The notes under the pieces were generated by a model. The model saw only the letters and a program-made list of their open reading frames with translations. It was not told the DNA's origin and did no database searches. Positions 8,924 through 49,106 of a DNA stretch of 64,000 nucleotides are shown here, piece by piece; the stretch's first letter is position 1, and each line of letters begins with the position of its first letter. A program made the translations under genes and the position numbers. Origin of the DNA: Lachnoclostridium sp. (GTDB lineage Bacteria > Bacillota > Clostridia > Lachnospirales > Lachnospiraceae); the NCBI GenBank assembly GCA_023665475.1, contig JAMPEB010000001.1, positions 1 through 64,000 of the forward strand, in the 5' to 3' direction.

Positions 8924-9304
8924 ATGTCGGATAATACCTTGGAAATCGGTCAGATTCTGTCAGATCTGCGCACAGAAAGAGACCTGTACCAAAAAGAACT
9001 TGCTGTTTACCTGAATGTTTCCATCGGCACGATTTCCAATTATGAAAAAGGCGTTCACTATCCCGACCTTGATACTTTATGTAAATTAGCCGACTATTTC
9101 GGAGTCACTACCGATTATCTCTTAAAGCGCACCAATTACCGCTATTATCCAAAAGATTTGGAGGTTCCTTTAACAAAGGACTACACGATTGCCAATCTGA
9201 TTAACACTTCTTTGGAATTATCCAAGAAAGACCGTGGTCTGTTAGCCGATTACGCCAAACTTTTGAAAATGCGTCAGGCATTGGAGTCCAAAAAACAGCC
9301 ATAA
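8924..9304 (+). CDS. XRE-family helix-turn-helix regulator
   Basis: A 126-residue protein. The N-terminal HTH_3 domain spans about residues 7-63 ('ILSDLRTERDLYQKELAVYLNVSIGTISNYEKG'). It is followed by the typical 'YPDLDTLCKLADYFGVTTDYLLKRT'. The short C-terminal part (about 75-126) is helical and may dimerise. AAGGAGGAATTA precedes the ATG. It is divergent from yqeG and convergent with the M20 gene, with a 15-bp tandem repeat between the two stop codons. The target is unknown. Confidence 0.9.
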   Translation: MSDNTLEIGQILSDLRTERDLYQKELAVYLNVSIGTISNYEKGVHYPDLDTLCKLADYFGVTTDYLLKRTNYRYYPKDLEVPLTKDYTIANLINTSLELSKKDRGLLADYAKLLKMRQALESKKQP

Positions 9305-9320
9305 TTGCGCCCAGGCATGT

Positions 9321-9388
9321 TGTGCCTATGCGCACTGTGCCTATGCGCACTGTGCCTATGCGCACTGTGCTTATGCGCATTGTGCTTA
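9321..9388. repeat. 15-bp tandem repeat, 4.5 copies
   Basis: The unit TGTGCCTATGCGCAC is repeated at 9321, 9336 and 9351. It appears again as TGTGCTTATGCGCAT at 9366 and partially at 9381. It fills the gap between the stop of the XRE gene (9304) and the stop of the convergent M20 gene (9386-9388). Each unit holds GTGC/GCAC dyads. Confidence 0.95.
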
Positions 9389-10615
9389 ATCACAATGGTC
9401 TTCCAGCCAGCGCCAAGCGGCATAGGCATACACCGCACATCCTCCGGGAAGCACGGCTTCGTCAAATTTGACCATGGGATGATGCTGTGTGTAGCCATAG
9501 CCTTTCTTAGGCTCCCCCGCCGCAAGCGCCAGCATCACGGAGGGAACCTGTCTGCTTACATATGCAAAATCCTCGGATCCTCCGGTTTGCTTGGAGGATT
9601 TTTCTCCCGATAAAGCATTCAGTTCTTCACTGGAAAATGCTCTTTCTTCCCCCAGAATTTCTTTCATGTATTTCAATGTGTCTCCCGCCACCGCTTCATC
9701 ATTGTACAGAGAAGGGCATCCGCTTCCGAAGCTCACTTTGGCCTCTGCCCTGAAAGTTTTCGCGATTCCTTCCGCCATCTCGACCATTCTTTTTTTCAAA
9801 AACGAGCGAATCTCCTCATCAAAAGTCCGTATGCTTCCTCCCATAACCGCAGTATCGGGAATGGCATTGGCGGCATTTCCGGCGCTCATGGTGCCGATAG
9901 TCAGCACCGCCCTGTCATTGATGGACAATTCCCTCGCACTCAGCTCCTGAAGCGCAATCAGAATATGGCATGCCGCGTTCAGGGGGTCCACTCCCATATT
10001 GGGCATGGAGCCATGGCAGCCCTTGCCCTGCACCTTAATTTCAAAATAATCCGCCGCGGGAGCGCTGACCCCCGGAGAAGAAACCACCGCCGTTCCTGCC
10101 GCGAAAGGCATTCCTGCCATCACATGAATCATCAGCGCCGCGTCCACTTTTGGATTTTCCAACACGCCTGCCTGTATCATGTCATTGGAGCCTTCAAAGA
10201 TTTCCTCGGCGGACTGAAACATAAGTTTCACCGTGCCGGGAATTTCTTCTTCGTGTTTCTTTAAAAGCCGCGCTGCTCCAAGCAGCATTGCCGTATGCAT
10301 ATCGTGTCCGCAGGCATGGGATTTGTCCCCCTGCGCCGCAAAAGAAAGTCCCGATTCTTCCTTGATCGGCAGTGCGTCCATATCCGCACGCAAAAGAAAT
10401 ACCTTTCCCTTCTTTTTGCCCCCTGCCAGAGCTACAATACCGGCTTTTCCGCAGTTTTTGGGTTCATATCCCATTTTTTCAAGTTCCCCTTTCACATAAG
10501 AAACCGTCTCTTCGGTATCGAATCCCGTCCCCGGATGTCTGTGCAGATATCTCCTGTCCTCCACTATGGTCTTTTCAAGCTCCTGCGCTTCTTTCCAAAT
10601 CATTTCCGCCAACAT
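9386..10615 (-). CDS. M20-family amidohydrolase (hippurate hydrolase-like)
   Basis: A 409-residue metal-dependent amidohydrolase of the M20D group, which removes N-acyl or amide groups from small substrates such as N-acyl amino acids. Seen motifs are 'RHPGTGFDTEETV', the metal ligands in 'RADMDALPIKEESG' and 'HACGHDMHTAMLLGAA', 'FQSAEE' with the catalytic glutamate pair, and 'GSEDFAYVSRQVPS' near the C-terminus. A lid dimerisation domain (about 185-300) begins at 'KGCHGSMPNMGVDPL'. The ATG lies 1 nt after the stop of the upstream MATE gene, so they are coupled. The substrate cannot be told from sequence. Confidence 0.92.
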   Translation of the reverse strand: MLAEMIWKEAQELEKTIVEDRRYLHRHPGTGFDTEETVSYVKGELEKMGYEPKNCGKAGIVALAGGKKKGKVFLLRADMDALPIKEESGLSFAAQGDKSHACGHDMHTAMLLGAARLLKKHEEEIPGTVKLMFQSAEEIFEGSNDMIQAGVLENPKVDAALMIHVMAGMPFAAGTAVVSSPGVSAPAADYFEIKVQGKGCHGSMPNMGVDPLNAACHILIALQELSARELSINDRAVLTIGTMSAGNAANAIPDTAVMGGSIRTFDEEIRSFLKKRMVEMAEGIAKTFRAEAKVSFGSGCPSLYNDEAVAGDTLKYMKEILGEERAFSSEELNALSGEKSSKQTGGSEDFAYVSRQVPSVMLALAAGEPKKGYGYTQHHPMVKFDEAVLPGGCAVYAYAAWRWLEDHCD

Positions 10616-24020: not shown

Positions 24021-24094
24021 AATTATCATTGCCCTTTTACCACTGCTTGACCAGTTTCTTGGACAGTGCCATCCCTACTATTACTCAGGCTTCT

Positions 24095-24280
24095 CTAAAA
24101 ATTTATCCGCAATGCACTTTCCATATCAACAAACTCCGGCTCAGAAAGTCCATACTCCCTCATTCCCCGAAGCAATCTCAGAATGCCTATTATCCAAAAT
24201 CAATACTTTTACCAAGCATACCATACTTTCCTCCGCATTGCCACAAAAACTTCTTGCCTTTGTGCGGAATCCAGTATAGA
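24095..24280 (-). pseudogene. decayed tail of an AlbA_2/Schlafen-like ATP-binding protein
   Basis: Two overlapping frames on the minus strand give 'ILDNRHSEI' and then, after a frameshift, 'LRLLRGMREYGLSEPEFV' continuing to DMESALRINF and a TAG (24095-24097). The second part resembles the C-terminal end of AlbA_2/AAA_4 ATP-binding proteins (…RGMREYGLPEPEF…). The rest of the gene is absent. Family assignment is from memory of this motif and is uncertain. Confidence 0.4.
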
Positions 24281-24307
24281 ATGATTTCAGCGGAACACTC
24301 GCTATGT

Positions 24308-24336
24308 TTGACAGGAGCAGGGAAATCTGCTACAAT
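24308..24336 (+). promoter_or_regulatory. consensus promoter of a small antisense RNA
   Basis: TTGACA (24308-24313) and TACAAT (24331-24336) with exactly 17 bp between. The expected start is near 24343. The next downstream element is the terminator at 24392-24433, so the transcript would be about 90 nt. Confidence 0.8.
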
Positions 24337-24342
24337 AAAAGG

Positions 24343-24433
24343 ACAAAAGGGAATACTGCCGATAGACGGTCAGACCTTAGAATTAATTACTAAAAAAGTA
24401 ACCGCAACCTTTGGTCGGGGCGGTTACTTTTTT
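24343..24433 (+). ncRNA. small RNA, candidate type I antitoxin RNA
   Basis: A roughly 90-nt transcript defined by the promoter at 24308-24336 and a strong hairpin ending in TTTTTT. No ribosome site and start codon pair is present inside it. It runs opposite to the hydrophobic peptide gene at 24424-24498 and overlaps that mRNA by about 42 nt at the 3' ends. This is the arrangement of type I antitoxin RNAs such as RatA or SR4 in Bacillus. Exact ends are inferred. Confidence 0.55.
24392..24433. terminator. bidirectional terminator shared by sRNA and toxin mRNA
   Basis: A perfect 14-bp inverted repeat, AAAAAAGTAACCGC (24392-24405) and GCGGTTACTTTTTT (24420-24433). The A and T runs give a U-tail in both directions. 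The loop holds a second small ACC-TTT-GGT dyad. It ends the plus-strand sRNA and the minus-strand peptide gene, whose TAA lies inside the stem. Confidence 0.85.
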
Positions 24434-24498
24434 GTGTGATTTATGTAAGCTATCAGAATTGATACGATGATTCCCAGAATCATCAGAACAACCGTCAG
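24424..24498 (-). CDS. hydrophobic peptide, candidate type I toxin
   Basis: A 19-24 residue peptide ending 'LMILGIIVSILIAYINHTKK'. It has one membrane-spanning stretch followed by a short charged tail, the layout of Fst/TxpA/BsrG-type toxins. The start is either CTG at 24498, with AGAGG 9 nt upstream, or ATG at 24483. The mRNA would begin near 24557, where a separate 20-codon reading frame starting MGYCHNGIGGQSF ends at a TGA overlapping the peptide start, perhaps a coupled leader. The leader has complementary segments (GGGATAG/CTATCCC) that could hide the ribosome site. Too short for statistical gene calling; the case rests on the paired promoters and shared terminator. Confidence 0.45.
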   Translation of the reverse strand: MTVVLMILGIIVSILIAYINHTKK

Positions 24499-24563
24499 AG
24501 GGATAGTCCCTCTGCGAAGAAGGACTGACCGCCTATCCCGTTATGGCAGTACCCCATAAAAGT

Positions 24564-24592
24564 ATTTTATCAAAAAATGTCGGACGCTACAA
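24564..24592 (-). promoter_or_regulatory. promoter of the hydrophobic peptide mRNA
   Basis: On the minus strand, TTGTAG (24587-24592) and TAAAAT (24564-24569) with a 17-bp spacer. The predicted start falls at about 24557. It is back-to-back with the KAP NTPase promoter (30 bp apart). Confidence 0.6.
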
Positions 24593-24622
24593 GAGTGATT
24601 CCGGCTTTTGATAGACTAAATA

Positions 24623-24651
24623 TTGAGAATATAATAAAACAATGCTATACT
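24623..24651 (+). promoter_or_regulatory. promoter of the KAP NTPase gene
   Basis: TTGAGA (24623-24628) and TATACT (24646-24651) with a 17-bp spacer, about 70 bp upstream of the ATG at 24720. Confidence 0.75.
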
Positions 24652-24719
24652 AAAGAAAAAATAAACAATACCTGACTGATTTAAGGGGAATTATCTGATA
24701 ATACAAGGAGAAAATACAA

Positions 24720-26072
24720 ATGAGCAATAAGATTGATCTGTTGGATAGGGCAAATTTTATAGAAAATGTAATAGCAATAGTGAATCAATTATCTGATAAT
24801 AAAACAGGATGTTGTTTTGCTATTGAAGGAGGATGGGGAATCGGGAAAACTTTTGTTATTGAAGATGTGGAAGAAAAATTAAAAATCATACAATCTGAAG
24901 AAACAAAAACAGATAAATATTTTGTATTTCATTATAATTGTTGGCAACATGATTATTATGAGGAACCATCAGTAGCTATCATATCCGCAATGAGTGCTTC
25001 GCTTAAGGAAGATGATACTATTGTTACGGAAAATATTGACAATACAATCAAAACAGGATACGAGATTGTAGCAGAAAAATTGAAAGAAATAGCAGGAACT
25101 TTTATTAAAAATAAAATAGGTATAAATTTGATTAGTATAGCAGATGAAATTCAAGAAAAGAAAGAGGAATCAGAAAAATCTGCTTTTGAATTTGACAAAA
25201 TGTTCAATTTTAGTCAGACGATTGAGAAAGTCAGGAGAAAGCTTCAAGAGATTGCACAACAAAGAACAATCATATTAGTAGTAGATGAGCTAGACCGCTG
25301 TATTCCCCAATACGCCATCAAGGTTCTTGAAAGGTTGCATCATATTTTTTATGGGCTTGAAAATGTTGTGGTTATCATGACAATTGATAGAAAGCAGTTA
25401 GAACATTCTGTAGAGGAAATGTTTGGCTCAAAAAATGATGATAATTCGATGGACATTGAAAAATACTTGAAAAAATTCATAGATTTTTCCATGGTATTGG
25501 ATAATGGAACAGTAAATGAATCCTTTCAAGACAAGTATCAATTTTATTTTAAAAGATTTATCGTGAATAATACTAATGACTTAAGTAAAGGTTTGCAACT
25601 TTTCCAAGTTCTTTTGAGTGAAGTTGATATTAGAAAGCAGGAAAAAATCATAGAAAAGGCAAATCTTATACATTCTCTTATATGCAATACTCAAGTTGAT
25701 GTATCTATGTTATTTTTTGAAATAATGTATGAAATACTAAAATCGTGGGGTATTGATGATTTGGGCTATGTCGTTTCAATAAACGATATATCGAATCCTA
25801 GTCTGGAAAAAATATTCGGTATAACAAAGTTAAAAGCAATAAAATCTTTGAATACACAAGCATTTAATACTGAAAATATTGAAGATATAAATTCATACAA
25901 GCATATTAAAGTTGTGAAATCTGATTTATTTGGAAAGGTATTTTGGTATTTTCGTGAAATATTTTATGATAAAGACAGCATTTATAAGGATCGCTATCAT
26001 CATATGGATGCAATAAAAAATGAAATCGAAATTGCTAAAAAGTATTGTGAATTTTGCAAAATAATAAAATAA
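24720..26072 (+). CDS. KAP-family P-loop NTPase
   Basis: A 450-residue STAND-like NTPase of the KAP family. Walker A is 'EGGWGIGKTF' (about residues 36-45). Walker B is 'TIILVVDELDRC' (about 182-193), with the family's D-E-L-D-R-C signature, and 'VVIMTIDRKQLEHSV' follows as sensor region. KAP proteins usually carry membrane helices inserted between the Walker motifs. Here that insert (about 115-160) is only weakly hydrophobic, so this member is probably cytosolic. KAP NTPases are frequent in mobile DNA and defence islands and are thought to be signalling or abortive-infection ATPases. The gene is very AT-rich compared with flanking chromosomal genes. AAGGAG lies upstream of the ATG. The C-terminal third (about 290-450) has no motif I recognise. 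Confidence 0.88.
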   Translation: MSNKIDLLDRANFIENVIAIVNQLSDNKTGCCFAIEGGWGIGKTFVIEDVEEKLKIIQSEETKTDKYFVFHYNCWQHDYYEEPSVAIISAMSASLKEDDTIVTENIDNTIKTGYEIVAEKLKEIAGTFIKNKIGINLISIADEIQEKKEESEKSAFEFDKMFNFSQTIEKVRRKLQEIAQQRTIILVVDELDRCIPQYAIKVLERLHHIFYGLENVVVIMTIDRKQLEHSVEEMFGSKNDDNSMDIEKYLKKFIDFSMVLDNGTVNESFQDKYQFYFKRFIVNNTNDLSKGLQLFQVLLSEVDIRKQEKIIEKANLIHSLICNTQVDVSMLFFEIMYEILKSWGIDDLGYVVSINDISNPSLEKIFGITKLKAIKSLNTQAFNTENIEDINSYKHIKVVKSDLFGKVFWYFREIFYDKDSIYKDRYHHMDAIKNEIEIAKKYCEFCKIIK

Positions 26073-26171
26073 GAGAAGAACCAAACCCGAGACCGAGACC
26101 GTTTCAAGTTTTGTGTAAACTCAAAAACCGATATAAGATATGTTTTTTTAATCGTTAAGTTTCTCAGTCTA

Positions 26172-26345
26172 CTATGCTTTCTGCAATCTTCCAGCCTCAA
26201 TCTCTTTTAGAAATGCTCTTCCACGCTCATTATAGTAATTATGTCTTTCCTGTGGTAGCATATCTTTAGTCATTTCATAGTTATACTCACGCAATTTGTG
26301 AATATCCTCAATCGTAAAATCAGGACTTAAAATAGGTTTTTCCAT
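26172..26345 (-). CDS. 57-residue conserved-type small protein, antitoxin-like
   Basis: A small reading frame beginning MEKPILSPDFTIEDIHKLRE and ending EIEAGRLQKA. GAGGG lies 6 nt before the ATG at 26345. The composition (short N-terminal extended part, then a charged helix with Glu/Lys/Arg) is like small antitoxins, and 'LSPDFTIEDIHKLREYNYE' resembles a small protein that recurs in Lachnospiraceae mobile regions, by my recollection. It points toward the end of the KAP gene (convergent). No toxin gene is directly joined to it. Confidence 0.6.
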   Translation of the reverse strand: MEKPILSPDFTIEDIHKLREYNYEMTKDMLPQERHNYYNERGRAFLKEIEAGRLQKA

Positions 26346-26489
26346 AATCATCCCTCACTTTCCAATAAAACAGTAGGACTATCCTTTCAGCCATTAGCAT
26401 TAATATAAGCGTATTCTTTCCAATATTTGCACATTTTGATATATCAAAATCAAATTTTCCTATGTCCTGCACACTGCCACCTCATCATC

Positions 26490-26761
26490 TCACCCTTTTC
26501 CATTCGTACATTGTTCGGACACCTCAATATTTAAAGCCTTATTTAAGGCTTTATTATTCTCCACGAAGACATCATATTTAGACACTATGTTATGGATTTC
26601 ATCTGATAGCATATCTATAACGGCAACTGACTCAATTTGCAATCCGTCTTCTTTAAGCGCAATGATTTTCTCCAACTGTTTCAACACATTCGAATACATT
26701 GCCTGTTCTTTTAATTGGCTGATTGTGTATTTCTAGATGCCAAACTCTTTTCTTCTGGCAT
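26490..26761 (-). pseudogene. small coiled-coil gene, apparently frameshifted
   Basis: An open frame of 69 codons from ATG 26699 encodes a helical protein (MYSNVLKQLEKIIALKEDGL…NKALNKALNIEV). It has no good ribosome site at that ATG. In another frame, ATG 26761 has AGAGG 7 nt upstream and encodes MPEEKSLASRNTQSAN before a stop, and the larger frame continues upstream of its ATG as 'YTISQLKEQA'. A single frameshift near 26725 would join them into one protein of about 90 residues. Either the gene is broken or the short form is made. Function unknown. Confidence 0.45.
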
Positions 26762-26966
26762 GATATTTCCTCTATCTCAATGGACATTGTGACCTCGTTA
26801 TTTTATTACACAAATTATTATATCCCAAAGATTCCACATATTCTTTTAAGGGAATCACAGCAATCCGGAAAGATAAAAGGATTTGAAGAAAATAAAATAG
26901 CTGCAGTTCTCCGTCAGTTCGTCAGTTATTCTTCAAATGAAAAGAATTCTATTTGTACTTATTTAA

Positions 26967-27554
26967 TTATGCTATACCCATTTTCTTTAATTCATCTAAC
27001 AAGCTTCTATATCTCTCTTTATTATTATCATAAATAATACCGTTAATTATTGATAGTATCATTGCCTGTCCGCCAAAAACCTGTTCCGAATCATATTCAT
27101 CCGGCAGTAACTCACCTGAAATGGGAATTTCAATTTCATTTATCCACCATTTGTCTATTTTTTGATATAATTCTAGTAACTTTACATACAACTTTGCATC
27201 TGCTTCATTAAAACCATAATTTAAATTTTTTAAAAGTTCATGCGTGATATCATTCCTTCTTCTCCGCAATTCTTGGTATAAGTTATAATCTTCCTCTGTA
27301 ATAGCCTCTGCATTAACAAACCAGCGCAACGAAGCATTCTCTATATTTTTCTCCAATGACCGCACTTCTTTTTTATATTCTTCTGTTTCTTCACAGTACA
27401 GTTCCCCATCCTTGATTTCAACATCACTATAAAAAGTTCTGGGTTGTGTAACAATATAATCTTTTAAACACTCAAAATTTAGTACAAATAATGCTGCAAA
27501 ATTTATATTAGCTTTTAAAATATCCTCATCTAATAAATTATTCCAATTATCCAA
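26967..27554 (-). CDS. HEPN-motif protein, possible RNase
   Basis: A 195-residue helical protein. Residues 97-110 read 'RRRRNDITHELLKN', which contains the HEPN ribonuclease signature R-N-x-x-x-H (Arg100 to His105, with the polar Asn right after Arg). HEPN domains are the catalytic parts of many abortive-infection and toxin RNases. No nucleotidyltransferase antitoxin (MNT) gene is adjacent, so it is not a simple HEPN-MNT pair. It lies between the KAP gene and a PD-(D/E)XK-like gene, all AT-rich. I could not assign a named family. Confidence 0.65.
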   Translation of the reverse strand: MDNWNNLLDEDILKANINFAALFVLNFECLKDYIVTQPRTFYSDVEIKDGELYCEETEEYKKEVRSLEKNIENASLRWFVNAEAITEEDYNLYQELRRRRNDITHELLKNLNYGFNEADAKLYVKLLELYQKIDKWWINEIEIPISGELLPDEYDSEQVFGGQAMILSIINGIIYDNNKERYRSLLDELKKMGIA

Positions 27555-27659
27555 CCTTAAATATCCTCCTAGAACACATCTTCAAGTGCCATCCAATGCT
27601 CATCACTCATATTCTCTGCATATTCCCTACAATTTCTAAATCCTCAGCGTAATTAATTT

Positions 27660-28553
27660 CTATGTATCCAACATATCCCATTCATCGCCTAATACCCATC
27701 TGAGAGCAGATAATTTCCCATTAAGCATTCCCCATTCAAAATCACTATAAGGACCCAAGTTTTCTTCTCCATATTTTTCTATAACTTTTCTTGCCGATTC
27801 CATAGCACCTTTCCAGATTTCCGGATTTACATCTTCTATTCCCTGTTCAATACGATATTCCAAACTCAAATGCCTATCAAACCATATCTTATCCATAAAC
27901 ATATTCTCTGCTTCTAAAACTTCTTTCAATGTGCGTACTTCTTCTCCGTCAGTATCATCAAATAAAGATATCCTTTCTGATTGATTTCGTATATTCGCGC
28001 ATAAATCATCTAGTTTCCGTTCAATTCTCGTTATTCCTTGTTCATTTACATATGAAAAATACGCCAACTGCTCTTCTTTCGTCATTTCTATTTCCAAATA
28101 TTCTAAACGAATCCCATACATCTTAGGCGTATTCAAAATATTAGCAATTCGCTCTAAATGATATATACGAACATCTAATGCTTTATCCGTTTCTTCTAAA
28201 GTTTTTCTTTCCATCAGTGATAATTCTTGATTCGTTATAAAAGCAAAGCCCTTTGCACCGTTTCTATAAACTCCCTCTAAATCATGTCTGTATTTTTTCT
28301 TTATTTCATTGAAACTTTGTTGTCCCCTTGGAAAATATACTGCTCCAATCCACTTAAAGCTATTAAATTCGCATAGCATATCCTTTCCACCATCTTTTCC
28401 ACCCAATGGATGTGAAGGATCGATATCACGAAATCCTTCCTGCTCTAAAATCAATGCTGCCAACCTTTCTGATGCCGCTTGTCCTTTATCCCATTCTGAC
28501 AATCTATGAAATGTTTCTCTTCCTTCTACCCTTCTCAATAAGTTTACCCCCAA
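27660..28553 (-). CDS. PD-(D/E)XK-like nuclease protein with C-terminal W-rich domain
   Basis: A 297-residue protein. The N-terminal half shows a restriction-endonuclease-like pattern: a helix 'QAASERLAALILEQEGF', then 'PLGGKDGGKDMLC' (residues 49-61) and a following strand 'WIGAVYFPRGQQSFNEIKKKYRHDLEG'. This fits D-(x)n-G-G-x-D, although the classical E-x-K is not obvious, so catalysis is uncertain. After a linker the C-terminus is a separate conserved-looking segment, 'FEWGMLNGKLSALRWVLGDE' followed by WDMLDT. The start is weak (TTG at 28553 or TTG at about 28538); neither has a strong ribosome site. It probably belongs to the same defence cluster as mod/res. Confidence 0.65.
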   Translation of the reverse strand: MGVNLLRRVEGRETFHRLSEWDKGQAASERLAALILEQEGFRDIDPSHPLGGKDGGKDMLCEFNSFKWIGAVYFPRGQQSFNEIKKKYRHDLEGVYRNGAKGFAFITNQELSLMERKTLEETDKALDVRIYHLERIANILNTPKMYGIRLEYLEIEMTKEEQLAYFSYVNEQGITRIERKLDDLCANIRNQSERISLFDDTDGEEVRTLKEVLEAENMFMDKIWFDRHLSLEYRIEQGIEDVNPEIWKGAMESARKVIEKYGEENLGPYSDFEWGMLNGKLSALRWVLGDEWDMLDT

Positions 28554-28554
28554 T

Positions 28555-28838
28555 GCTATTCTTCTAAAATCTTACCTATAAATTCATATAGTTCTTATAT
28601 TTCATCTTTGCTCAAAGTAATACCTTTTCCCATCTTTTCATGTTCAGGTACTCAATTTCTAATATCGTATTTTGAAATTCTTCCATTCCAAGAGATAGAA
28701 TTCAATTCTTTTTCCATCCCTTAGTACTCTTGGAAAGTACTCCTAGTTCTTCTAAGGATATTCTTTTTAATATCTGCCACTGTAAAAAGATGCGCATAAT
28801 AAAACAAATCATCTAAATATTTACGAAACAAAGGATCT
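28555..28838 (-). pseudogene. decayed coding remnants between res and the nuclease-like gene
   Basis: No intact gene is visible. One stretch reads 'KGITLSKDEI', stop, 'ELYEFIGKILEE', stop, just before the nuclease-like gene. Another reads 'DPLFRKYLDDLFYYAHLFTV' then about 20 more residues and stops, with no start codon. Both look like fragments of former genes interrupted by stops. Confidence 0.35.
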
Positions 28839-28839
28839 A

Positions 28840-31800
28840 TTATTCTGTAATTACTTCTTCAATAATCTGCTTAATTTTTTTATTGCTCAATTGCGTATGA
28901 AAAGAAACTGTATAACCATCAATCGTAAGTTGCTTAAAGAAAGCTTCTGCACATTTAATTTTGACATCTTCCGTACCACGGAGAGTAGACTTTCTTTCAA
29001 CTAATTTTGTTTCCACCACAATATTCAGTTCCTTTGTGCCGCCTTTTCGCTTTACAACATACATAAAGTCCGGGCTGTAAGTCTCACCAACAATAGTGGG
29101 AATTGCTATGCTGGACTTTGGAATTTTTCCATATACCACAATCTCATCAATATCAGAATGCATGATATTGTCTTTTTCCAATGGAGAGTCAAAAGCAATG
29201 CGATTATATAGGTATTTATCAGATGGCGTTCCCTCAACAAACATTGTGCCTACATTTCCCTGCTTAATCACTTCTCTGGGTGTGCCGTCTTTATATGTCA
29301 GTGTAGTTTCTGTAACAGGCTGATTTGAACGAGAATACTTGAAACGGGTCTGCATTTTCTCTATACGCCAATCTACAAACGCACTAACAATATTAGAAAC
29401 CGTATATTCATTGATATGGTCTTCTGGAATACCATTTCCCTCTTCGCTTGCGAGTTCACACAGCGCCTTATGAAGTTCCACAATCGGAATACTTGTCTGT
29501 CTACTGATTCTTTTTAAGAATTCATTATATGCCAATGGTCTTTTCACAAAATACGATACTCCTGTATCTTCTCTAAGCACCATTGCATTCCCATCGGCAA
29601 CTACCTCATCTCTATGGCTATACAATGTGACATTTCCAAAAATGCCACCTTTTCGTAATATATCATGTAACACCTGTGGAATTTCGTCTTTTACATCAGT
29701 ATCATAGAATAAGTAATATTTATGATTAATGTTTTCCCAAAGTTCCTTTAATTCAGAATAGACAGCCTTACAAATATGGATTTCTTCTTTATTGTTTTTG
29801 TTAACATCCGTGACCTTATTACTGCCTACACCACTAGCAAACTCTGGATAATCTGCGAAAAATGCATCTCTTTTCTCGGTGCTTATTTCTCTTTCGAAGT
29901 TAATATAACCTTTTGTCATCAATTCAAGAGCAAGTGTATTTGTATCCATTTTTCGTTCTTTAGCAACTTTTTCTAAAGTTTCTTTCGATACAACTGTAGT
30001 CGCAGGCATTTCTCCATTGATTTCATCAACCAACTTTTGTGCAAAATCAGCTTCTGTAAAATCCACTATATAGTTCAACTTAAATTCTTCATTAGAGATG
30101 CGATTGCCGTTTTCATCAACCGGCAAACGCAGACCACGTCCAACCTCTTGCAACTTACTGCTCTCGCTGCCACTAGAACGTAGCTTTGCTATAGTAAATA
30201 CATTAGGGTTATCCCAACCTTCTCTTAGTGTCCATTTTGAGAAAAGGAATCTTCTTGTATTATATGTACCATCTACATTACGAAAAGAAATCAATCCCTT
30301 TTTATTATGAAGTATATCTTCCACTTCATTTGCAATTGATTCATCAGAATCGTTATTGTCCTGTGAAAAATATCCTGCATGACAAGCAGAAATATCTGCT
30401 GCACTTGCTACAAGATATTCTCTATATTCTTGTTCTGCACTAGGCAATGTTGCCAACAGATTATTGATATGTTCCAACAAAAGACTTTCAAACATTTCCT
30501 TAAGATATGGTATTTTTCCATCCTCTGCTTCTCGGTATGATGAGATATCGTCAATAAAGAAAAGTGCTAGTGTTTTAATTTTAAATTGCCTGCCAGAAAA
30601 ATTCTGTCTTTCAGTTTCAAAGTGGCGTTGAATAGCCAATTTCAACATTTGCTCCTGATAAGAAGATGAATAAATATCTGTGTTAAATTCCTCTCCTTGG
30701 AATTTCGTCTGTCCATTTGTCAATTCAATATAATTTTTACCAATAGCAGAAATAGTAATACCTTCAAAGGCTGTATCAATAACGGACAACGAATCTCCCT
30801 GACATAAACATATAGGTCTTGTATCTTTGCCACGCTTCTTTAAATGGAATGTAGCAGAGGTTTTGGATACAACGGTTACCAACTTAACCTTTTCTTCTTT
30901 TTGTGATAAAGGTTCAAAATGCTCTTTTGCAACACCTTTTATCAGATTAAGATTAAAGGCATCACAAGCATTCAATTCGTAAACAAGGTTATTAAAATCT
31001 TTGGATGTTGTTCCATTACACCCTATACCGACAGACAATTCTGGAAAAGTTGCCCCAAAACGAATAATCATCTGCGGACATAATTCTGTAGTGATAACTT
31101 TATATGCCCTTTGGTCTCTGGAAAAACGATGCGGCTCATCAATAATAACAATCGGTTTCGTTGCTTTCAATGCATCGAATGGTCGATAAAATCCCTCTAC
31201 CAGATAGTCATAGTCAGAACATGTCAACATATTACTAGTTGTCAAAAGTTGCATATTTACAAGCAATACATAAATCTTGTTTGTGTTTTGGCAAGAACCT
31301 ATAACATAATCTCTCACTGCCGATGGCATTGATAAAAAGCCTTTTTTCTTTTTCTTGGGGCTCTCCAAAACACCTAATTCAATATCACAGTTATATCCAC
31401 AAGCATCTGAAAAATGATGTTTTACATAACTGTCTGATATAAACTGGGATGCGCCTGCTTTGATTGCCAAGGATGGAACCGCAACAATAAACTTATTAAA
31501 GCCAAATCTTTTATGCATTTCATAGATGGTCTGTGTATATACATAAGTTTTTCCTGTTCCTGTTTCCATTTTAACATCAAGGTTAAGATAATCTCCCTCA
31601 TCACGACAGCCACGGTAATCTGCACGAATACCTTTTTGAACTTCTAAGAGATTATGAATCAGTAAAGGGTCCTTCCCATCAAACATTGGATTTTCGTAAG
31701 AAAAGCGAGGTTTACTCATCGAAACACCATCAAGTACAGACATCAGAGCATCTATCGCTTTTTTCTGATGGTCTAATTCTCGTTCAAGTATTAATTCCAA
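28840..31800 (-). CDS. res: type III restriction enzyme Res subunit
   Basis: About 986 residues. It is the ATP-dependent helicase/nuclease of a type III restriction system and acts only in complex with Mod. The superfamily-2 helicase core has Walker A 'METGTGKTYVYTQ' (about 78-90) and a DEPH box 'IVIIDEPHRFSRDQ' near 220. Further motifs are 'FGATFPE' and the late helicase motif 'LQEVGRGLRLPVDENG'. The C-terminal nuclease domain has 'YSPDFMYVV...IVVETK', a PD-(D/E)XK site that looks intact. I prefer the TTG start at 31800 (8 nt after AGGAGG); a GTG at 31809 lies inside the ribosome site. It starts a few bases after mod. Confidence 0.94.
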   Translation of the reverse strand: MELILERELDHQKKAIDALMSVLDGVSMSKPRFSYENPMFDGKDPLLIHNLLEVQKGIRADYRGCRDEGDYLNLDVKMETGTGKTYVYTQTIYEMHKRFGFNKFIVAVPSLAIKAGASQFISDSYVKHHFSDACGYNCDIELGVLESPKKKKKGFLSMPSAVRDYVIGSCQNTNKIYVLLVNMQLLTTSNMLTCSDYDYLVEGFYRPFDALKATKPIVIIDEPHRFSRDQRAYKVITTELCPQMIIRFGATFPELSVGIGCNGTTSKDFNNLVYELNACDAFNLNLIKGVAKEHFEPLSQKEEKVKLVTVVSKTSATFHLKKRGKDTRPICLCQGDSLSVIDTAFEGITISAIGKNYIELTNGQTKFQGEEFNTDIYSSSYQEQMLKLAIQRHFETERQNFSGRQFKIKTLALFFIDDISSYREAEDGKIPYLKEMFESLLLEHINNLLATLPSAEQEYREYLVASAADISACHAGYFSQDNNDSDESIANEVEDILHNKKGLISFRNVDGTYNTRRFLFSKWTLREGWDNPNVFTIAKLRSSGSESSKLQEVGRGLRLPVDENGNRISNEEFKLNYIVDFTEADFAQKLVDEINGEMPATTVVSKETLEKVAKERKMDTNTLALELMTKGYINFEREISTEKRDAFFADYPEFASGVGSNKVTDVNKNNKEEIHICKAVYSELKELWENINHKYYLFYDTDVKDEIPQVLHDILRKGGIFGNVTLYSHRDEVVADGNAMVLREDTGVSYFVKRPLAYNEFLKRISRQTSIPIVELHKALCELASEEGNGIPEDHINEYTVSNIVSAFVDWRIEKMQTRFKYSRSNQPVTETTLTYKDGTPREVIKQGNVGTMFVEGTPSDKYLYNRIAFDSPLEKDNIMHSDIDEIVVYGKIPKSSIAIPTIVGETYSPDFMYVVKRKGGTKELNIVVETKLVERKSTLRGTEDVKIKCAEAFFKQLTIDGYTVSFHTQLSNKKIKQIIEEVITE

Positions 31801-31813
31801 AATTTGCACCTCC

Positions 31814-33868
31814 TTAGTATCTGATATCCAGATTGATTTTTAAATTCTTTTCCGAATCTCGTAAGATCTTTACATTTGTTTTTAAATTTTCCATTTCAAC
31901 ATAGTTGAAATTGTAACCAAAGAGAACAATATTTTGTGGATTAAAATTCCCTTCAAAATTATATTTTTCAATCAAATCTTTGATAGCATCTTCTGTTAAC
32001 CCCGGATTAATGAGATATAAATGATTATCACACCAATAAGCGATGTAACCAGCAAAGTCAATCATCTTACAGTTATTTACGAAGCCATAATTATCATGAA
32101 CAAGCCAAGTTGTAAGTACAGTATTTGCCCCGAATTCATCATACACAGTAGTATCTGTAACTAATCCGCTGTTATCGAATGACTCCATTTTATCCAAGGT
32201 TGTCTGGCTGACCTCATGTAAGGTATAGTGCTTGAAACCAAAGTCAGCTGTAGTGTCTGGACTTTCTGATTTTATCTTTCTTGCTGAATGTATGATTCGC
32301 TCCATTGCAATTTGATCCAAGGTATGAACCCTATTTTGTTTGTCAAGAAACTTTATCATTTTTTTAATTTTGTTTTTTGCTTTACCAGAAGAATTTTGTA
32401 AAGAATCATCTAAATCTTCTGGAAGTTGAACCATGATATATTTAATATTTCTTTTATACTGTGCATTTATATGCATAACTGCATCTGCAGTAGATGAAGA
32501 ACCCGAAAAAAAGTCAAGCACCGTAAAATCATCTCCCTCTAAAAGAGTGATAAGAAGTTTCAGAAAACCAATGTTTTTGGGTGCAGAAAATAATACTTCA
32601 TCTGAATTAAATAAGTCTTTTAGGTATGTCCCTGCGCCAGTAGTTGTCAATTCCATACTGTATTCCTTTTTAACGCCATTCACAATAGCTTCATATTTTT
32701 TGTTCACAAGTTGGCTTTTCATTCTTACTTTATCTGCATAATTTTTCTCATATATTTTACTTTCTGCGAAGTCTAACGCATCTTCCTCATATAACTCTAA
32801 AAGTTTTGATGATGTGTATGTATTCTCTACCAAATTTCCATCTTTAACAGATGCATATCTTTGATAGCCCAAAGTTATTAGTTCTGTATCAACATCATCA
32901 ATATTTTCTTTTCTGATTTCAATTTTATCAATTGACCTATTATAGTAAACAGAATAATTCTTATCAGAATCAAGATTTGTTACAATCTCATTAAATTCAT
33001 TTTCTCCTACAAGAACTCTTTTACCACTATTATGAACATAGTTTCCATTTTCATCTAAAGACATGTCAGATGCTGCTTTTGGTACATTCTCCACAAAATG
33101 AGCTAGTTCTTTTTTTCTAGAATAAATCAAACAGTATTCTGAACTAATCGAAATAAAATCCGAGTTTTTACGGCCTTTGGGATTATTTTCAACAGAAAGA
33201 CAAGATATGAAATTTTGTTCACCAAAAATGTCATCACACATCAACTTTAAGTTTCCTTGCTCATTATCATCAATTGAGATGAAAATCACACCATCTTTTG
33301 CAAGCAAATCTCTGGCCAATTGTAGTCTCGGATACATAAACATTAGCCATGCAGAATGTGAAGCGCTTCCACGATTAGTTAAGTCAAGAATTCTCTGTGC
33401 CTGTTCTTCATCAATACTTAATTTTGCAACCAAATCATCAACTGTAAAACTGAACTTATCATTATACACAAACCCATCTGTGCCCGTATTGTAAGGTGGA
33501 TCTATATAGATACACTTCACTTCTCCAGCATATGACTTAAGCATGTGTTTTAATCCATCAAGATTATCTCCACTAATATAAACATTCTCGCTGTTTTTGT
33601 TCTCAGGCAAGCTGTTGTGTACATCATCAGGAACAATAATTGTTTCTGTATCAAGTGAGGCAATCATTTTAGCATAATTTTTACCAAGGAACTTTAATTC
33701 ATATCCTTCCTGTGATATGTCAACCTTATCCTTTAATAACTCCGAAAATCTTATCATATCAAATGAGCCATCAGCATGAAAACAAGATGGGAAATTCTCA
33801 TGCAAAACATGCAGTTCTTTTTGGTTAGGAGTTACAGCTTTGTTTGCCGCCATAATATCTTTAATCAT
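31814..33868 (-). CDS. mod: type III DNA methyltransferase Mod subunit
   Basis: A 684-residue beta-class N6-adenine methyltransferase that recognises the asymmetric target and methylates one strand. Motif IV is 'CIYIDPPYNTGTDG' (DPPY at 123-126). The AdoMet-binding motif I comes later, 'VLDFFSGSSSTADAV' near residue 450, which is the circular order of the beta class. The region between (about 200-430) is the target recognition domain and sets sequence specificity. 'GGISIDDNE'-like 'VIFISIDDNEQGNLK' is typical of Mod proteins. No simple-sequence repeat suggesting phase variation is present. It is the first gene of the mod-res operon. Confidence 0.95.
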   Translation of the reverse strand: MIKDIMAANKAVTPNQKELHVLHENFPSCFHADGSFDMIRFSELLKDKVDISQEGYELKFLGKNYAKMIASLDTETIIVPDDVHNSLPENKNSENVYISGDNLDGLKHMLKSYAGEVKCIYIDPPYNTGTDGFVYNDKFSFTVDDLVAKLSIDEEQAQRILDLTNRGSASHSAWLMFMYPRLQLARDLLAKDGVIFISIDDNEQGNLKLMCDDIFGEQNFISCLSVENNPKGRKNSDFISISSEYCLIYSRKKELAHFVENVPKAASDMSLDENGNYVHNSGKRVLVGENEFNEIVTNLDSDKNYSVYYNRSIDKIEIRKENIDDVDTELITLGYQRYASVKDGNLVENTYTSSKLLELYEEDALDFAESKIYEKNYADKVRMKSQLVNKKYEAIVNGVKKEYSMELTTTGAGTYLKDLFNSDEVLFSAPKNIGFLKLLITLLEGDDFTVLDFFSGSSSTADAVMHINAQYKRNIKYIMVQLPEDLDDSLQNSSGKAKNKIKKMIKFLDKQNRVHTLDQIAMERIIHSARKIKSESPDTTADFGFKHYTLHEVSQTTLDKMESFDNSGLVTDTTVYDEFGANTVLTTWLVHDNYGFVNNCKMIDFAGYIAYWCDNHLYLINPGLTEDAIKDLIEKYNFEGNFNPQNIVLFGYNFNYVEMENLKTNVKILRDSEKNLKINLDIRY

Positions 33869-33900
33869 TCTAATTTCTCCTTTTATCTTTTCTACATTTT

Positions 33901-33909
33901 ATTATATCA
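33901..33909 (-). promoter_or_regulatory. extended -10 element before mod
   Basis: On the minus strand TGATATAAT, a TGn-TATAAT extended -10 (33901-33909), lies about 33 bp upstream of the mod ATG. I see no good -35. Confidence 0.5.
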
Positions 33910-33942
33910 CAATGCAGTTATTTCATCTATTGTAACCTATAT

Positions 33943-35655
33943 CTACAATATTCCGAAATGCTTTAATGCCGCCCTAATAGCCTCTTCTTTCTTCAGTGGA
34001 CACTGTGGCGCCTTAGCATTTTCTTTCTTTGACAGATTATAATTCTGTCCAACATCCAATCCACATTTCCTCTTAATCTGTGAGATATACAAAGAAGATA
34101 CCGACAACCCCGTCTGCTCTTTCACATACGCCTTTAGTTTCTGATATGTCGTACCTTTCTGAAATCCGGACATATCCATATCCTCCAGCGAGAACTCTAC
34201 CCGCACCTTCTTCGAGTCGATTTCTCCCTTAGAAAGCAGCACCACCGTCTCCACATTCGCAGTCCAAGGAAACTGGTCCACCGCCACAGCCTTTTCCACC
34301 ACATAACCACGCTCCAGAAAGACCTCCAAATCCCGTGCCAGACTGGTAGCTTTGCAGGAGATATAAACAATCCGCTCGACGCCATAGTCAATAATGCGGG
34401 GCAGAGCCTTGGGGTGGATGCCGTCGCGGGGTGGGTCCAGAATAATCATATCCGGTTTTGCCGTAAGCTCTGCCAATACTTTGAGCACATCCCCCGCCAA
34501 AAAACTGCAGTTAGAAAGCCCGTTGTCCTTGGCGTTCTGCCTTGCGGCCTCCACTGCCTCCTCCACGATTTCCACGCCAATCACCTGTGCCGCCACCGGC
34601 GCCATCAGTTGGGCAATGGTGCCCGTGCCGCTGTATAAGTCAAATATGGTCTTGTCCCCTTCTCCCAAATCGCCTACATAATCCCTGACGGTGCGGTACA
34701 GCACCTCTGCGCCGTAGGAATTGGTCTGAAAGAAAGAAAACAGCGATATTTTGAATTTCAGTCCCAGAAGCTCCTCATAAAAATAATCCTGCCCGTAAAG
34801 AATATCCGTCCTGTCACTCTGTACCGTATCCGCCATGGAGTCGTTGGTAATATGCAGGATACCGGCAAACTTTCCCAAAATCTTGCCTTCCTTCTCCAAA
34901 GCCAGAAGGGCATTCCTAAAACCCTCTGTCAGCTCTTGCAGTTCTTGTGCAGCAACGCGCTGCATCTGCTCCTCACCGCTCTCCCACGGCGTCTGTGAGG
35001 TGGTCACCAATGCCGCCAAAATTTCCCCTGTTCCGGAAGCTTTGCGCAGCAACAGGTGGCGCAGATATCCTTTGTGGCTTAATCTATGAAAAAAACTTAC
35101 TTCCTTCTCCGCAAAATATTCCCTTACCGTTTTCAATATAATCCGGTAGTCCTCATCCACGATTTTACAGTCTTCCACGGTGACCACATCATAAAAGCTG
35201 CCCCTCTTATGCATTCCCAGACTAAGGGGACCGCCTTTTTGGGCATCGCCAAAAGTAAATTCCATCTTATTTCGGTACTCATATGCCTTAGGACTTCCCT
35301 TGATGCCCTCCCAACGCCAGCTTTCCTGCTGCCTGTCCAGTACACTGTCTAAAAGGCGCTTCACCTGTGCCTCCTTGATGCATAGCTGTTCTTCATAGGG
35401 CAGGGAGAGATAAGTGCATCCTCCGCATACGCCAAACAGGGAACACGGTCTTCCGGTTTCCTGAGGTGATTTTTCCAGCACCTCCAAGAGCCGGCCTTCC
35501 GCCTTCCCTTTGCGTACTTTATTGATACCAAATTTTACTTTCTGTCCGGGCAGGCAATTCTTTACAACAACGGTTTCCTCCCCAATCCTCACAATGCCTT
35601 TGTTGGGAAAGTCCACCCGTTCCACAACCCCTTCAAGTACCTGTCCCTTTTTCAT
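33943..35655 (-). CDS. rlmD: 23S rRNA (uracil-C5) methyltransferase, RlmD/RumA type
   Basis: About 570 residues. It methylates C5 of a uracil in 23S rRNA (U1939 in E. coli numbering). The N-terminal TRAM domain (about 1-55) is followed by a [4Fe-4S] site, 'CSLFGVCGGCTYLSLPYEEQ' plus a further Cys, then the AdoMet domain ('IFDLYSGTGTIAQLMA', 'DPPRDGIHPKAL', 'ISCKATSLARDL' with the catalytic Cys). About 85 extra C-terminal residues ('EFSLEDMDMSGFQKGTTYQK…LKHFGIL') form an extra domain I recognise as common in Lachnospiraceae RlmD. I start at ATG 35655 (MKKGQVLEG) with GGGG 7 nt upstream. The AT-rich island begins just beyond its 3' end. Confidence 0.92.
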   Translation of the reverse strand: MKKGQVLEGVVERVDFPNKGIVRIGEETVVVKNCLPGQKVKFGINKVRKGKAEGRLLEVLEKSPQETGRPCSLFGVCGGCTYLSLPYEEQLCIKEAQVKRLLDSVLDRQQESWRWEGIKGSPKAYEYRNKMEFTFGDAQKGGPLSLGMHKRGSFYDVVTVEDCKIVDEDYRIILKTVREYFAEKEVSFFHRLSHKGYLRHLLLRKASGTGEILAALVTTSQTPWESGEEQMQRVAAQELQELTEGFRNALLALEKEGKILGKFAGILHITNDSMADTVQSDRTDILYGQDYFYEELLGLKFKISLFSFFQTNSYGAEVLYRTVRDYVGDLGEGDKTIFDLYSGTGTIAQLMAPVAAQVIGVEIVEEAVEAARQNAKDNGLSNCSFLAGDVLKVLAELTAKPDMIILDPPRDGIHPKALPRIIDYGVERIVYISCKATSLARDLEVFLERGYVVEKAVAVDQFPWTANVETVVLLSKGEIDSKKVRVEFSLEDMDMSGFQKGTTYQKLKAYVKEQTGLSVSSLYISQIKRKCGLDVGQNYNLSKKENAKAPQCPLKKEEAIRAALKHFGIL

Positions 35656-35717
35656 CCGCATACCCCGCACACTACAAAACGCTCACAAGCAGAACTTGTC
35701 TGTAGCAGTGTTTTTCT

Positions 35718-46939: not shown

Positions 46940-47132
46940 AAGGTCCCTCATTTCCGTAATTTTTCATTTGCACCCGATATCAATGTCTATATAGGAAGAT
47001 TTACTTTTCTATTCTACATTACTTTTACTTCTTTTTCCACAAAAAATATCTCTTTTGTAAAACTTTACTAAAAATTAAGAAATTCGCAGCCCGGATTCAG
47101 GATTTTCTGCGGAAATTTTTTCACAACAAACT

Positions 47133-47168
47133 GAGAGCGTATCGATTATTTTTAATCAATACGCTCTC
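47133..47168 (-). repeat. 16-bp near-perfect inverted repeat
   Basis: GAGAGCGTATCGATTA (47133-47148) and TAATCAATACGCTCTC (47153-47168), one mismatch, 4-nt loop. No U-tract follows on either strand, so it is not a classical terminator. It could end or process the leader RNA. Confidence 0.75.
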
Positions 47169-47254
47169 TCAGACTATGCTATCCAATGGTCCGTTTCCTC
47201 TCTTTCATTCATATTGGCCATTCTCTTATTCAGTTGTATGAATTTTCTTCCATT

Positions 47255-47494
47255 TTTATCCTTTGTACTTTTCCACTTTTTCTTTTGTACACGGTACTGT
47301 AACGCTCTTATCTTTATCTTTTGTATATCGTTACTTTTTCCTGTGGAGTTTCCATTTATCTATATAAAATCAATCTATATAAACTTTATCTTCGGTATTG
47401 TGTTCTTTGGTACTTTATGGAAGAAAAATGATTGGTTACCGGCTTAACTTCCCATTGGACCTTACCTCTCTTTCGTAAAATTTTTCTTTTGTAT
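47255..47494 (-). repeat. cluster of reiterated 14-mers (RTACAAAAGAWAAA)
   Basis: Read on the plus strand, copies are TTTATCCTTTGTAC (47255), TTTTTCTTTTGTAC (47277), TTTATCTTTTGTAT (47313), TTTATCTTCGGTAT (47385), GTTCTTTGGTAC (47402, shorter) and TTTTTCTTTTGTAT (47481). A weaker one may exist near 47465. All point the same way, with irregular spacing. They fall in the predicted minus-strand transcript. Confidence 0.7.
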
Positions 47495-47529
47495 TCTGTT
47501 CTCTGACTATATTTTCTTTTGATGATTTT

Positions 47530-47558
47530 ATTATAATAGACTCGTCTACATTTGTCAA
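47530..47558 (-). promoter_or_regulatory. perfect consensus sigma-A promoter
   Basis: On the minus strand, TTGACA (47553-47558) and TATAAT (47530-47535) with exactly 17 bp between. It is the strongest promoter match in the window, yet the nearest gene (GH3) starts about 590 bp downstream. Confidence 0.85.
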
Positions 47559-47689
47559 CACATTTTTCTAAAAATTTTTAATTTTTTTCAAAATTTTACA
47601 GCATTAGATTTTTATTCCTATTTTTCGATGTTTTTCGACAAATTATCTGACGATTCAGCTCTGCCGTGCGGGCATATCGACTCCATCTT

Positions 47690-47724
47690 TAAACCCCCGG
47701 CGCCGCTTTAACCGGACCGGGGGT
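47690..47724 (-). terminator. terminator of the glyA-hom-apgM-lysC operon
   Basis: ACCCCCGG (47717-47724 read on the minus strand) pairs with CCGGGGGT (47693-47700) and is followed by TTTAAAG. It lies about 63 nt after the lysC stop. Confidence 0.7.
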
Positions 47725-47786
47725 ATTGCTATTGCTTCTCATATGAAAAATCTCAAATCCTGCGGAAAGCGTCTTACATCCCTTTC

Positions 47787-49106
47787 CTACAGCTTGGTTA
47801 TCACAAAAATATCATAAATAGCCCTGATAGCATCCTCAAAATCGGCATTTGCCACACCAATAATGATATTTAACTCCGAGGAACCCTGATCGATCATCTT
47901 GACATTGATTTTACTGTGGGCTAACGCCGAAAAAATCCTGCCCGCCGTACCTCTGGTGGACTTCATTCCGCGTCCCACCACCGCAATCAGCGCCAGATCG
48001 GACTCAATGTCTATGGAATCCGGATTCGCCAGCCTGTGAATCCCCGCTACCACCTTCTGCTCCTTGTGCATAAATTCATCCTGATGCACAAAAACCGTCA
48101 TGGTGTCGATGCCGGAAGGAACATGCTCAAAGGAAATTCCATTTTCCTCAAACGCCTGCAAAATCTTTCTGCCAAACCCTATTTCCGTATTCATCATATC
48201 TTTTTCAATATTGACGGCGCAAAAGCCCTTCTTGCCCGCAATGCCGGTGATGACATATTTGGATTTCTGGCAGGTGCTTCCCACAATCCATGTGCCGTTG
48301 TCCTGCGGAGCGTTAGTATTTCGGATATTGATGGGAATGCCTTCCTGACGCACGGGAAAAATAGCATCCTCATGCAGCACACTTGCACCCATATAGGCAA
48401 GCTCCCGAAGTTCCCTGTAAGTAATGGTCTCGATGCCCTCGGGATGGTCAATGATACGGGGGTCTGCAATCAAAAAGCCCGACACATCCGTCCAATTCTC
48501 ATAAACATCCGCTTTCGCCGCTTTCGCCACAATAGAACCTGTCACATCGGAACCTCCCCTGGAAAAAGTCTTGATGGTTCCGTCCGGCAGGGAGCCGTAA
48601 AATCCGGGAATCACTGCATTTTTGCACTTTGCCAGCTTTTTTGACAGCACTTTATCCGTTTTTGTGCCGTCAAAATTGCCCTCCTCGTCAAAAAATACCA
48701 CCGTTGCCGCATCAATAAACTCATAGTCTAAATAAGCCGCCATAATGATGCCGTTCAGATATTCCCCTCTGGACGCCGCATAACTGCTGCCCGCTTTATC
48801 CTTAAAGTTTTTCTCAATCGTCACAAACTCGTCTTCCAGACTAAGCTCCAGAGAAAGACCCGTTATGATTTCCTGATAACGCTCCTTGATTTCCTTTAAC
48901 TGCGGAGCAAACTCCTTATCTTCCTCCGCTAAGGCATAGCAGGCATAGAGCATATCCGTTACCTTAGTGTCTTTGTCAAATCTCTTGCCGGGGGCAGAGG
49001 GAACCACAAACCGTCTCTCCTCTTCCGCAAGCACGATTTCCGCTGCTTTTTTGAACTGTTCGGCACTCGCAAGAGAACTGCCTCCAAATTTTACTACTTT
49101 TGACAT
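47787..49106 (-). CDS. lysC: aspartokinase
   Basis: A 439-residue monofunctional aspartokinase that phosphorylates aspartate, the first step toward lysine, threonine and methionine. The start 'KVVKFGGSSLASAEQFKKA', 'GFYGSLPDGTIKTFSRGGSDVTGSIVAKA' and 'YENWTDVSGFLIADPRII' are typical of the kinase domain. Two ACT domains follow ('IEKDMMNTEIGFGRKILQAFEENGISFEHVPSGIDTMTVFV' and a second near 'ALIAVVGRGMKSTRGTAGRIFSALAHSKINVKMIDQGSSE'). The second, with 'QGSSELNI', is the allosteric site for lysine or threonine. I start at ATG 49106 (MSKVVKF), 6 nt after GGAG. It is the last gene of the operon. Confidence 0.95.
   Translation of the reverse strand: MSKVVKFGGSSLASAEQFKKAAEIVLAEEERRFVVPSAPGKRFDKDTKVTDMLYACYALAEEDKEFAPQLKEIKERYQEIITGLSLELSLEDEFVTIEKNFKDKAGSSYAASRGEYLNGIIMAAYLDYEFIDAATVVFFDEEGNFDGTKTDKVLSKKLAKCKNAVIPGFYGSLPDGTIKTFSRGGSDVTGSIVAKAAKADVYENWTDVSGFLIADPRIIDHPEGIETITYRELRELAYMGASVLHEDAIFPVRQEGIPINIRNTNAPQDNGTWIVGSTCQKSKYVITGIAGKKGFCAVNIEKDMMNTEIGFGRKILQAFEENGISFEHVPSGIDTMTVFVHQDEFMHKEQKVVAGIHRLANPDSIDIESDLALIAVVGRGMKSTRGTAGRIFSALAHSKINVKMIDQGSSELNIIIGVANADFEDAIRAIYDIFVITKL

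Follow-up and report, generated by a model that had tools for sequence, protein, structure and literature searches.

A 64,000-nucleotide stretch of DNA from a Lachnospiraceae-type gut bacterium (the window) contains, next to the 3' end of rlmD, an AT-rich island of 9 to 10 kb that encodes a KAP ATPase, a HEPN protein with an RX4H motif, a nuclease-like protein (Nuc), and a complete type III restriction-modification (RM) system, together with gene remnants. Our analysis indicates that this island is probably a mosaic of anti-phage genes occupying the 3' end of rlmD, a site at which mobilizable elements encoding serine integrases insert. Since no integrase or relaxase was recognised in the window, the island is most readily interpreted as what is left of such an insert. 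It is of an ordinary kind, a mosaic of defence genes carried as cargo at an integration site of a type already known, with two additions: a readable scar in rlmD and an effector with an undescribed, widely shared protein domain.

The G+C content was 0.29 to 0.36 per kilobase between 24 and 34 kb and 0.40 to 0.54 in almost every 1-kb bin elsewhere in the window; outside the island, only two bins deviated, with 0.37 at positions 1 to 1000 and 0.36 at positions 47001 to 48000, a second low-GC kilobase amid surroundings of 0.46 to 0.50. In 300-bp bins, the drop started at ~24.6 kb and ended at ~34.0 kb. The original prediction of an AT-rich island at ~24.5 to 33.9 kb is borne out by both sets of bins, its coordinates being accurate to about 100 to 200 bp at either end. 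The accessory status is supported by the absence of the island genes beside rlmD in every genus relative read and by the rarity of two of the genes: in a sample of 397 genomes of the family, nuc occurs in only three others (one copy being a fragment) and the HEPN gene in only two others (one match being weak). The defence-type content is supported by profile matches for KAP and type III RM, by the HEPN motif, and by the nuclease-like character of Nuc, which matched no family. A gene order fixed across the genus with normal base composition was not observed.

The nature of the site is apparent from rlmD itself, which consists of two parts.

34231 to 35670, minus strand: rlmD body, encoding residues 1 to 480 up to ...ETVVLLS (TIGR00479, 291 bits); it adjoins pcrA in genus relatives.
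33943 to 34230, minus strand: region encoding the 95-residue C-terminal tail of RlmD, a homologue of serine-integrase tails and a putative attL-type scar (match to L048; discordant identities).

RlmD from the window has 95 residues beyond ETVVLLS, where seven relatives have 1 to 8 residues. The tail matched the C terminus of a serine integrase encoded ~13 kb from rlmD in locus L048 (30% identity over 115 residues; E = 4e-9), suggesting that it derives from an integrase. The identity to the window RlmD is 79% for the body and 31% for the tail in L038, and 53% for the body and 64% for the tail in L048, which belongs to another family. These discordant values point to different histories of body and tail. 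The listed RlmD matches in 200 family genomes included 29, counted by hand from the match table, that reached at least residue 562, and most matches ended near residues 480 to 500. Tail-bearing RlmD proteins were found in many genera.

Elements inserted in rumA have been reported to exchange the 3' part of this gene reciprocally with the integrase gene (PMC4701971). As expected from this exchange, the far-end serine integrases of L037 and L036 end shortly after their own ETV-like motif (C-terminal ends STVETVALLAKEGPA* and TTVEVVILMRNCGKQA*, respectively). The L048 integrase retains a long tail, so the L048 insert does not fit a simple exchange. The serine-integrase integrative and conjugative elements described in rumA/rlmD (in Streptococcus, and CTn5 in C. 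difficile 630 delta-erm) share with the window the target gene, the exchange at its 3' end, and the altered RlmD C terminus (PMC4701971). The window differs from them in keeping the RlmD tail without recognised integrase or conjugation genes, in carrying defence genes as cargo, and in having a Lachnospiraceae-type host. The rlmD scar provides a sequence-only marker of a hotspot for defence cargo in Lachnospiraceae-type genomes that is readable after loss of the integrase, and it thereby points to a place where defence genes not yet known could be sought.

The pairing of pcrA and rlmD is kept in genus relatives, usually with one small gene in between, and the DNA beyond the 3' end of rlmD was different in each relative read. 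At this site, L037 carries a DISARM-type set (a DrmMII-like methylase, DrmE, DrmA, and DrmB) with a serine integrase; L048 carries a type IIG-like RM system with a specificity subunit, SIR2-HerA, an integrase, and a relaxase; L039 carries a PrimPol-helicase protein and a mobilisation gene; and L036 carries transporter and regulator genes. Mob_Pre relaxases are present in L036 and L048, and the integrases of L036, L037, and L048 are all serine integrases. By our own reading of the sequences, the tail-less rlmD of L042 is followed by housekeeping genes. The initial proposal placed a possible insertion hotspot between rlmD and the dtd and lipoprotein genes. The rlmD side of this proposal is upheld by the variable 3' DNA and the tail signature. 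The dtd and lipoprotein genes are not supported as the opposite edge, since neither was found next to rlmD in any relative read, and in the relative with the closest dtd (83%) the neighbours are others.

No integrase and no mobility gene, including relaxase genes, were recognised among the island genes, and no clear flanking direct repeat was found, the search having returned chance-level families only and being one that pairs of 2 to 21 bp would escape. The earlier remark that no integrase was found holds to the letter, although rlmD itself contains integrase-derived sequence, the sole integrase-like stretch within the window. The search for integrases in the genome itself was empty, but it was run without a positive control. 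No tRNA or Rfam element was found in the island, the sole tRNA detected being far away.

The island contains the following genes and domain.

24720 to 26072, plus strand: KAP P-loop NTPase of 450 residues, a candidate single-gene defence (Pfam KAP_NTPase; PADLOC PDC-S20).
26967 to 27554, minus strand: HEPN-type protein of 195 residues with the RX4H motif RNDITH (four-way alignment; PADLOC Csx1, E = 8e-4).
27660 to 28553, minus strand: nuc, encoding 297 residues, with a predicted restriction endonuclease (REase)-fold N-terminal domain (about residues 14 to 154), a long helix, and a conserved C-terminal domain (AlphaFold2 model and fold alignment).
27663 to 27944, minus strand: the C-terminal domain of Nuc, ~94 residues, common to PIN, DUF4062, and stand-alone proteins (sequence matches; no described family).
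28840 to 31809, minus strand: res, type III restriction subunit of 989 residues (PRK15483; ResIII and RE_endonuc).
31814 to 33868, minus strand: mod, type III methyltransferase of 684 residues (Pfam N6_N4_Mtase and T3RM_EcoP15I_C; PADLOC MTase_III, 518 bits).

Comparison with relatives revealed the mosaic structure of this cargo. The Nuc proteins of L058, L059, L063, and L064 are about 90 to 94% identical to that of the window. The gene located 3' of nuc in L058, L063, and L064 is of the AlbA_2 type, at the position occupied by the HEPN gene in the window. In L059 and L063, the genes ahead of nuc comprise a different type III RM system (Mod about 30% and Res about 27% identical to the window proteins), a gene encoding a 281-residue protein, downstream of that other res, and a PC4-like gene. 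DNA homology of the nuc block to L058, L059, and L063 spans positions 28836 to 27657, one edge lying 4 bases from the Res stop and the other 3 bases past the nuc stop. Several remnants accompany the intact genes.

28772 to 28836, minus strand: 65-bp scrap of the 281-residue gene (blastn, 84 to 86% to L059 and L063; tblastn, 67 to 76% over 21 residues).
28559 to 28780, minus strand: frameshifted remnant of the 74-residue PC4-like gene (tblastn, 61 to 74% to L058, L059, and L063).
26172 to 26380, minus strand: remnant of a PIN-toxin operon, a 59-residue small partner plus the last 10 PIN residues (comparison with L154).
26490 to 26699, minus strand: open reading frame (ORF) of 69 residues, possibly decayed (ORF list; no convincing match).
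24092 to 24199, minus strand: possible AlbA_2/Schlafen-type remnant, marginal (E = 6e-4, many queries tried).

The PC4-like remnant matched L058 in two frames; the intact copy in relatives matched Pfam PC4 (E = 3e-13), and the 281-residue gene is also intact there. The small partner of the PIN toxin is intact in the window (80% identity to a 61-residue ORF of L154), and the toxin is reduced to its last 10 residues (100% identity to the end of the L154 PIN ORF), the intact copy matching PIN_3. Decayed fragments had been predicted at 23.9 to 24.3, 26.5 to 26.8, and 28.6 to 28.8 kb. Of the corresponding stretches, the one at 28.56 to 28.84 kb was identified, the match at 24.09 to 24.20 kb is marginal, and the ORF at 26.49 to 26.70 kb gave no convincing match. 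The homology edges at the Res and nuc stops, together with the remnants, indicate that gene-sized segments were probably exchanged at gene ends.

Profile searches assigned no family to Nuc. Its AlphaFold2 model (mean predicted local distance difference test [pLDDT] score of 75.7) combined a mixed N-terminal domain with a long helix and a C terminus made up of helices. The N-terminal part aligned with the restriction endonuclease folds of AspBHI, the Avs4 nuclease, AF1548, and MspJI, with VIA-align Z scores of 11.0, 10.8, 10.6, and 9.9, respectively. On this model, residues 14 to 154 are predicted to adopt an REase fold. The sequence GGKDGGKD is present; where ExK would be expected, the strand has GAVY in the window and in relatives and MAVY in a Rhodococcus domain of 54% identity. 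Nuc shares a predicted fold with the REase-fold effectors AspBHI, MspJI, and Avs4 nuclease, but it lacks a recognisable ExK lysine and the sensors of these systems and has a different C-terminal domain. In L052 and L053, nuc is flanked by an AbiD gene on one side and by a gene for an HNH/DnaB-like ATPase on the other; the encoded proteins are about 65% identical to Nuc of the window, and their last 30 residues are almost the same. In L052, a reverse transcriptase gene (7727 to 9436, minus strand), retron-like by eye (YVDD), lies 0.7 kb downstream of this AbiD-nuc-HNH module. In L106, a contig labelled viral, nuc is cut after ~124 residues (4998 to 5372) beside genes that appear IS66-like by eye, and it is still preceded by the genes for the 281-residue and 74-residue PC4-like proteins. 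A decayed 33-residue fragment with stops, 97% identical to the C terminus of Nuc, is present in another genus (L054, 10030 to 10128).

The last 94 residues of Nuc matched, with identities of about 37 to 57%, the C termini of PIN proteins (PIN_12/DUF4935) from Pseudomonadota, Actinomycetota, and Bacteroidota and the end of a DUF4062 protein in Methylocystis. The PIN_12/DUF4935 proteins, encoded by plasmids and viral contigs, possess the same ~94-residue C-terminal domain, mostly with about 45 to 52% identity, but an unrelated N-terminal PIN nuclease in place of the REase fold of Nuc. Further PIN fusions were found on viral contigs, as were eight stand-alone ORFs of 93 to 126 residues, three of which overlap the end of the upstream gene. 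PHROGs classed this upstream gene as HNH in L097 and L103; in L095 it is HNH-like by eye only, with no Pfam match. These three stand-alone copies start inside the 3' end of the HNH or HNH-like gene (L095, 4340 to 5243; L097, 5273 to 6279; L103, 5411 to 6282). No match to Nuc or to its C-terminal domain was found in cultured phage records, and no second copy of the domain was found in the genome studied here.

In an alignment of 26 domain sequences, the mean majority fraction was 0.55 for the first 65 positions and about 0.88 for the last 29, with W89, L92, D93, and T94 invariant. The domain ends in a near-invariant tail of the EWDMLDT type, NGKLSALRWVLGDEWDMLDT. Modeled alone, it was predicted with high confidence to form three helices (mean pLDDT of 91), apart from the last few residues, the final block having a pLDDT of about 55 yet being nearly invariant. 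No credible family match was obtained in Pfam, NCBIfam, PHROGs, PADLOC, or the PDB; weak matches of single domain members to DS1_2 and other NCBIfam models, far below cut-off, were rejected. Foldseek with the domain alone found no PDB match with an E value below 1, and one similar model in BFVD was that of an uncharacterised 92-residue siphovirus protein (TM score of 0.78). We found no paper that names the domain or connects DUF4935 to defence. The combination of a three-helix unit and a near-invariant tail of low model confidence is in keeping with a docking module that several types of nucleases have put to use, in which the tail may serve for docking or recognition. We tentatively suggest that the domain, with its flexible tail, could be an undescribed adaptor coupling REase-fold, PIN, DUF4062, and (as a separate overlapping gene) HNH effectors to a single shared trigger or target, itself conserved in four bacterial phyla and in viral contigs. 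The domain offers a small sequence handle linking several nuclease classes across phyla, and should it serve in docking or triggering, identification of the protein that it binds would explain the control of all nucleases that bear it.

The HEPN protein showed weak profile matches only, to Csx1 (PADLOC, E = 8e-4) and CARF-HEPN models, with a weak DUF4145/Csx1 resemblance, and its profile found no chain in the PDB. Residues R100, N101, T104, and H105 were invariant in the alignment of four homologues, establishing conservation of the RX4-6H motif. No homologue was found in viral contigs. The closest one (55% identity), in L065, is encoded directly 5' of the BREX gene pglX, with pglZ two genes on; profile searches detected no BREX core gene (pglX, pglZ, or others) in the island. 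HEPN proteins encoded beside RM and Pgl operons have been described, with PrrC as a functional model (PMC3710099). The window protein resembles these in its RX4H motif and in its neighbours, which are RM genes here and BREX genes in L065, but it is assigned to no named HEPN family. By analogy with these precedents and with the BREX-adjacent homologue, a guard role for the HEPN protein is a fair inference.

The KAP protein matched Pfam KAP_NTPase (E = 3.6e-29) and, over its full length, the PADLOC candidate PDC-S20 (539 bits; residues 1 to 450 on 1 to 446), with the Walker A and B motifs GGWGIGKT and ILVVDELDR; its gene is oriented opposite to the rest of the island. Both RM subunits are full length with the domains expected of EcoP15I-like type III systems and show no notable difference from them. 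Mod contains the N6-adenine methyltransferase motifs DPPYNTG and DFFSGSSSTAD, and Res (1,159 bits against NCBIfam PRK15483; cut-off of 564) contains GTGKT, DEPH, and PDF...ETK, in keeping with a superfamily 2 helicase followed by a C-terminal endonuclease.

In the scenario that we favor, a serine-integrase element would have integrated at the 3' end of rlmD, its integrase and mobility genes would then have been lost, and cargo genes would have been swapped afterwards. The type III RM system would cut unmodified phage DNA, and the KAP protein may act as a single-gene ATPase defence. The HEPN protein could be an RNase halting growth once the first line fails, and Nuc may dock on a trigger or partner through its C-terminal domain before the REase-fold domain attacks DNA. 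Several points weigh against this scenario. Neither an integrase nor a relaxase nor a matching attR was found within the island or next to it, which means that the integration event itself is not directly seen; the RlmD tail could have come with an element older than the present cargo; and the comparison of the site is one between different relatives. As to Nuc, AVY occupies the ExK position without the expected lysine, which makes its catalysis uncertain; the docking role of its C-terminal domain is guessed from sequence conservation; and no constant partner gene was found in the annotated neighbourhoods read. The hotspot claim is unaffected even if the assignment of Nuc is wrong.

An origin of the island by homologous recombination without an integrase, the RlmD tail being ancestral and lost in some lineages, appears quite improbable: the window has no integrase or clear repeat and tail-bearing RlmD occurs in many genera, but the tail and the C terminus of a serine integrase are homologous, the divergence of the tail is discordant with that of the RlmD body, and the site integrases of L036 and L037 lack it. 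We also consider it rather unlikely that type III RM, Nuc, and HEPN form one unit in which RM is the first line and a PrrC-like HEPN protein and Nuc fire when RM is inactivated. The co-orientation of mod, res, nuc, and the HEPN gene on the minus strand would fit such a unit, as would the position of nuc or its N-terminal part after a type III res (L059, L063) or what is probably the tail of a res (L106), the HEPN homologue next to pglX in L065, and the published coupling of HEPN proteins to RM and Pgl operons (PMC3710099). However, nuc and the HEPN gene were not found together at the other loci examined, nuc is accompanied in L052, L053, and L061 by an HNH/DnaB-type gene (and by AbiD in L052 and L053) rather than by RM genes, and the breakpoints at gene boundaries suggest independent cassettes. 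That nuc is inactive or decaying, with a C-terminal domain that is a relic kept in frame by chance, is improbable. The copies in L063, L084, L106, and L054 carry frameshifts, are interrupted, or survive as fragments, and the ExK lysine is missing, but the window frame is complete over its 297 codons and shows the conservation relative to L052 and L053 described above, which is nearly full in the last 30 residues.

Two further features lie at the KAP side of the island. A stretch of ~50 bp (26094 to 26144) is 90 to 100% identical to many scattered sites in genus genomes and is perhaps an insertion-sequence end. The other is a short reading frame.

24424 to 24510, minus strand: frame encoding the short hydrophobic peptide GTIPLTVVLMILGIIVSILIAYINHTKK* (translation), inside a repeat family with further copies in the genome and the genus.

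The repeat surrounding this frame (~24209 to 24613) has copies at G000:C11:97251-98067 and in many genus genomes, and the peptide resembles holin-like type I toxins.

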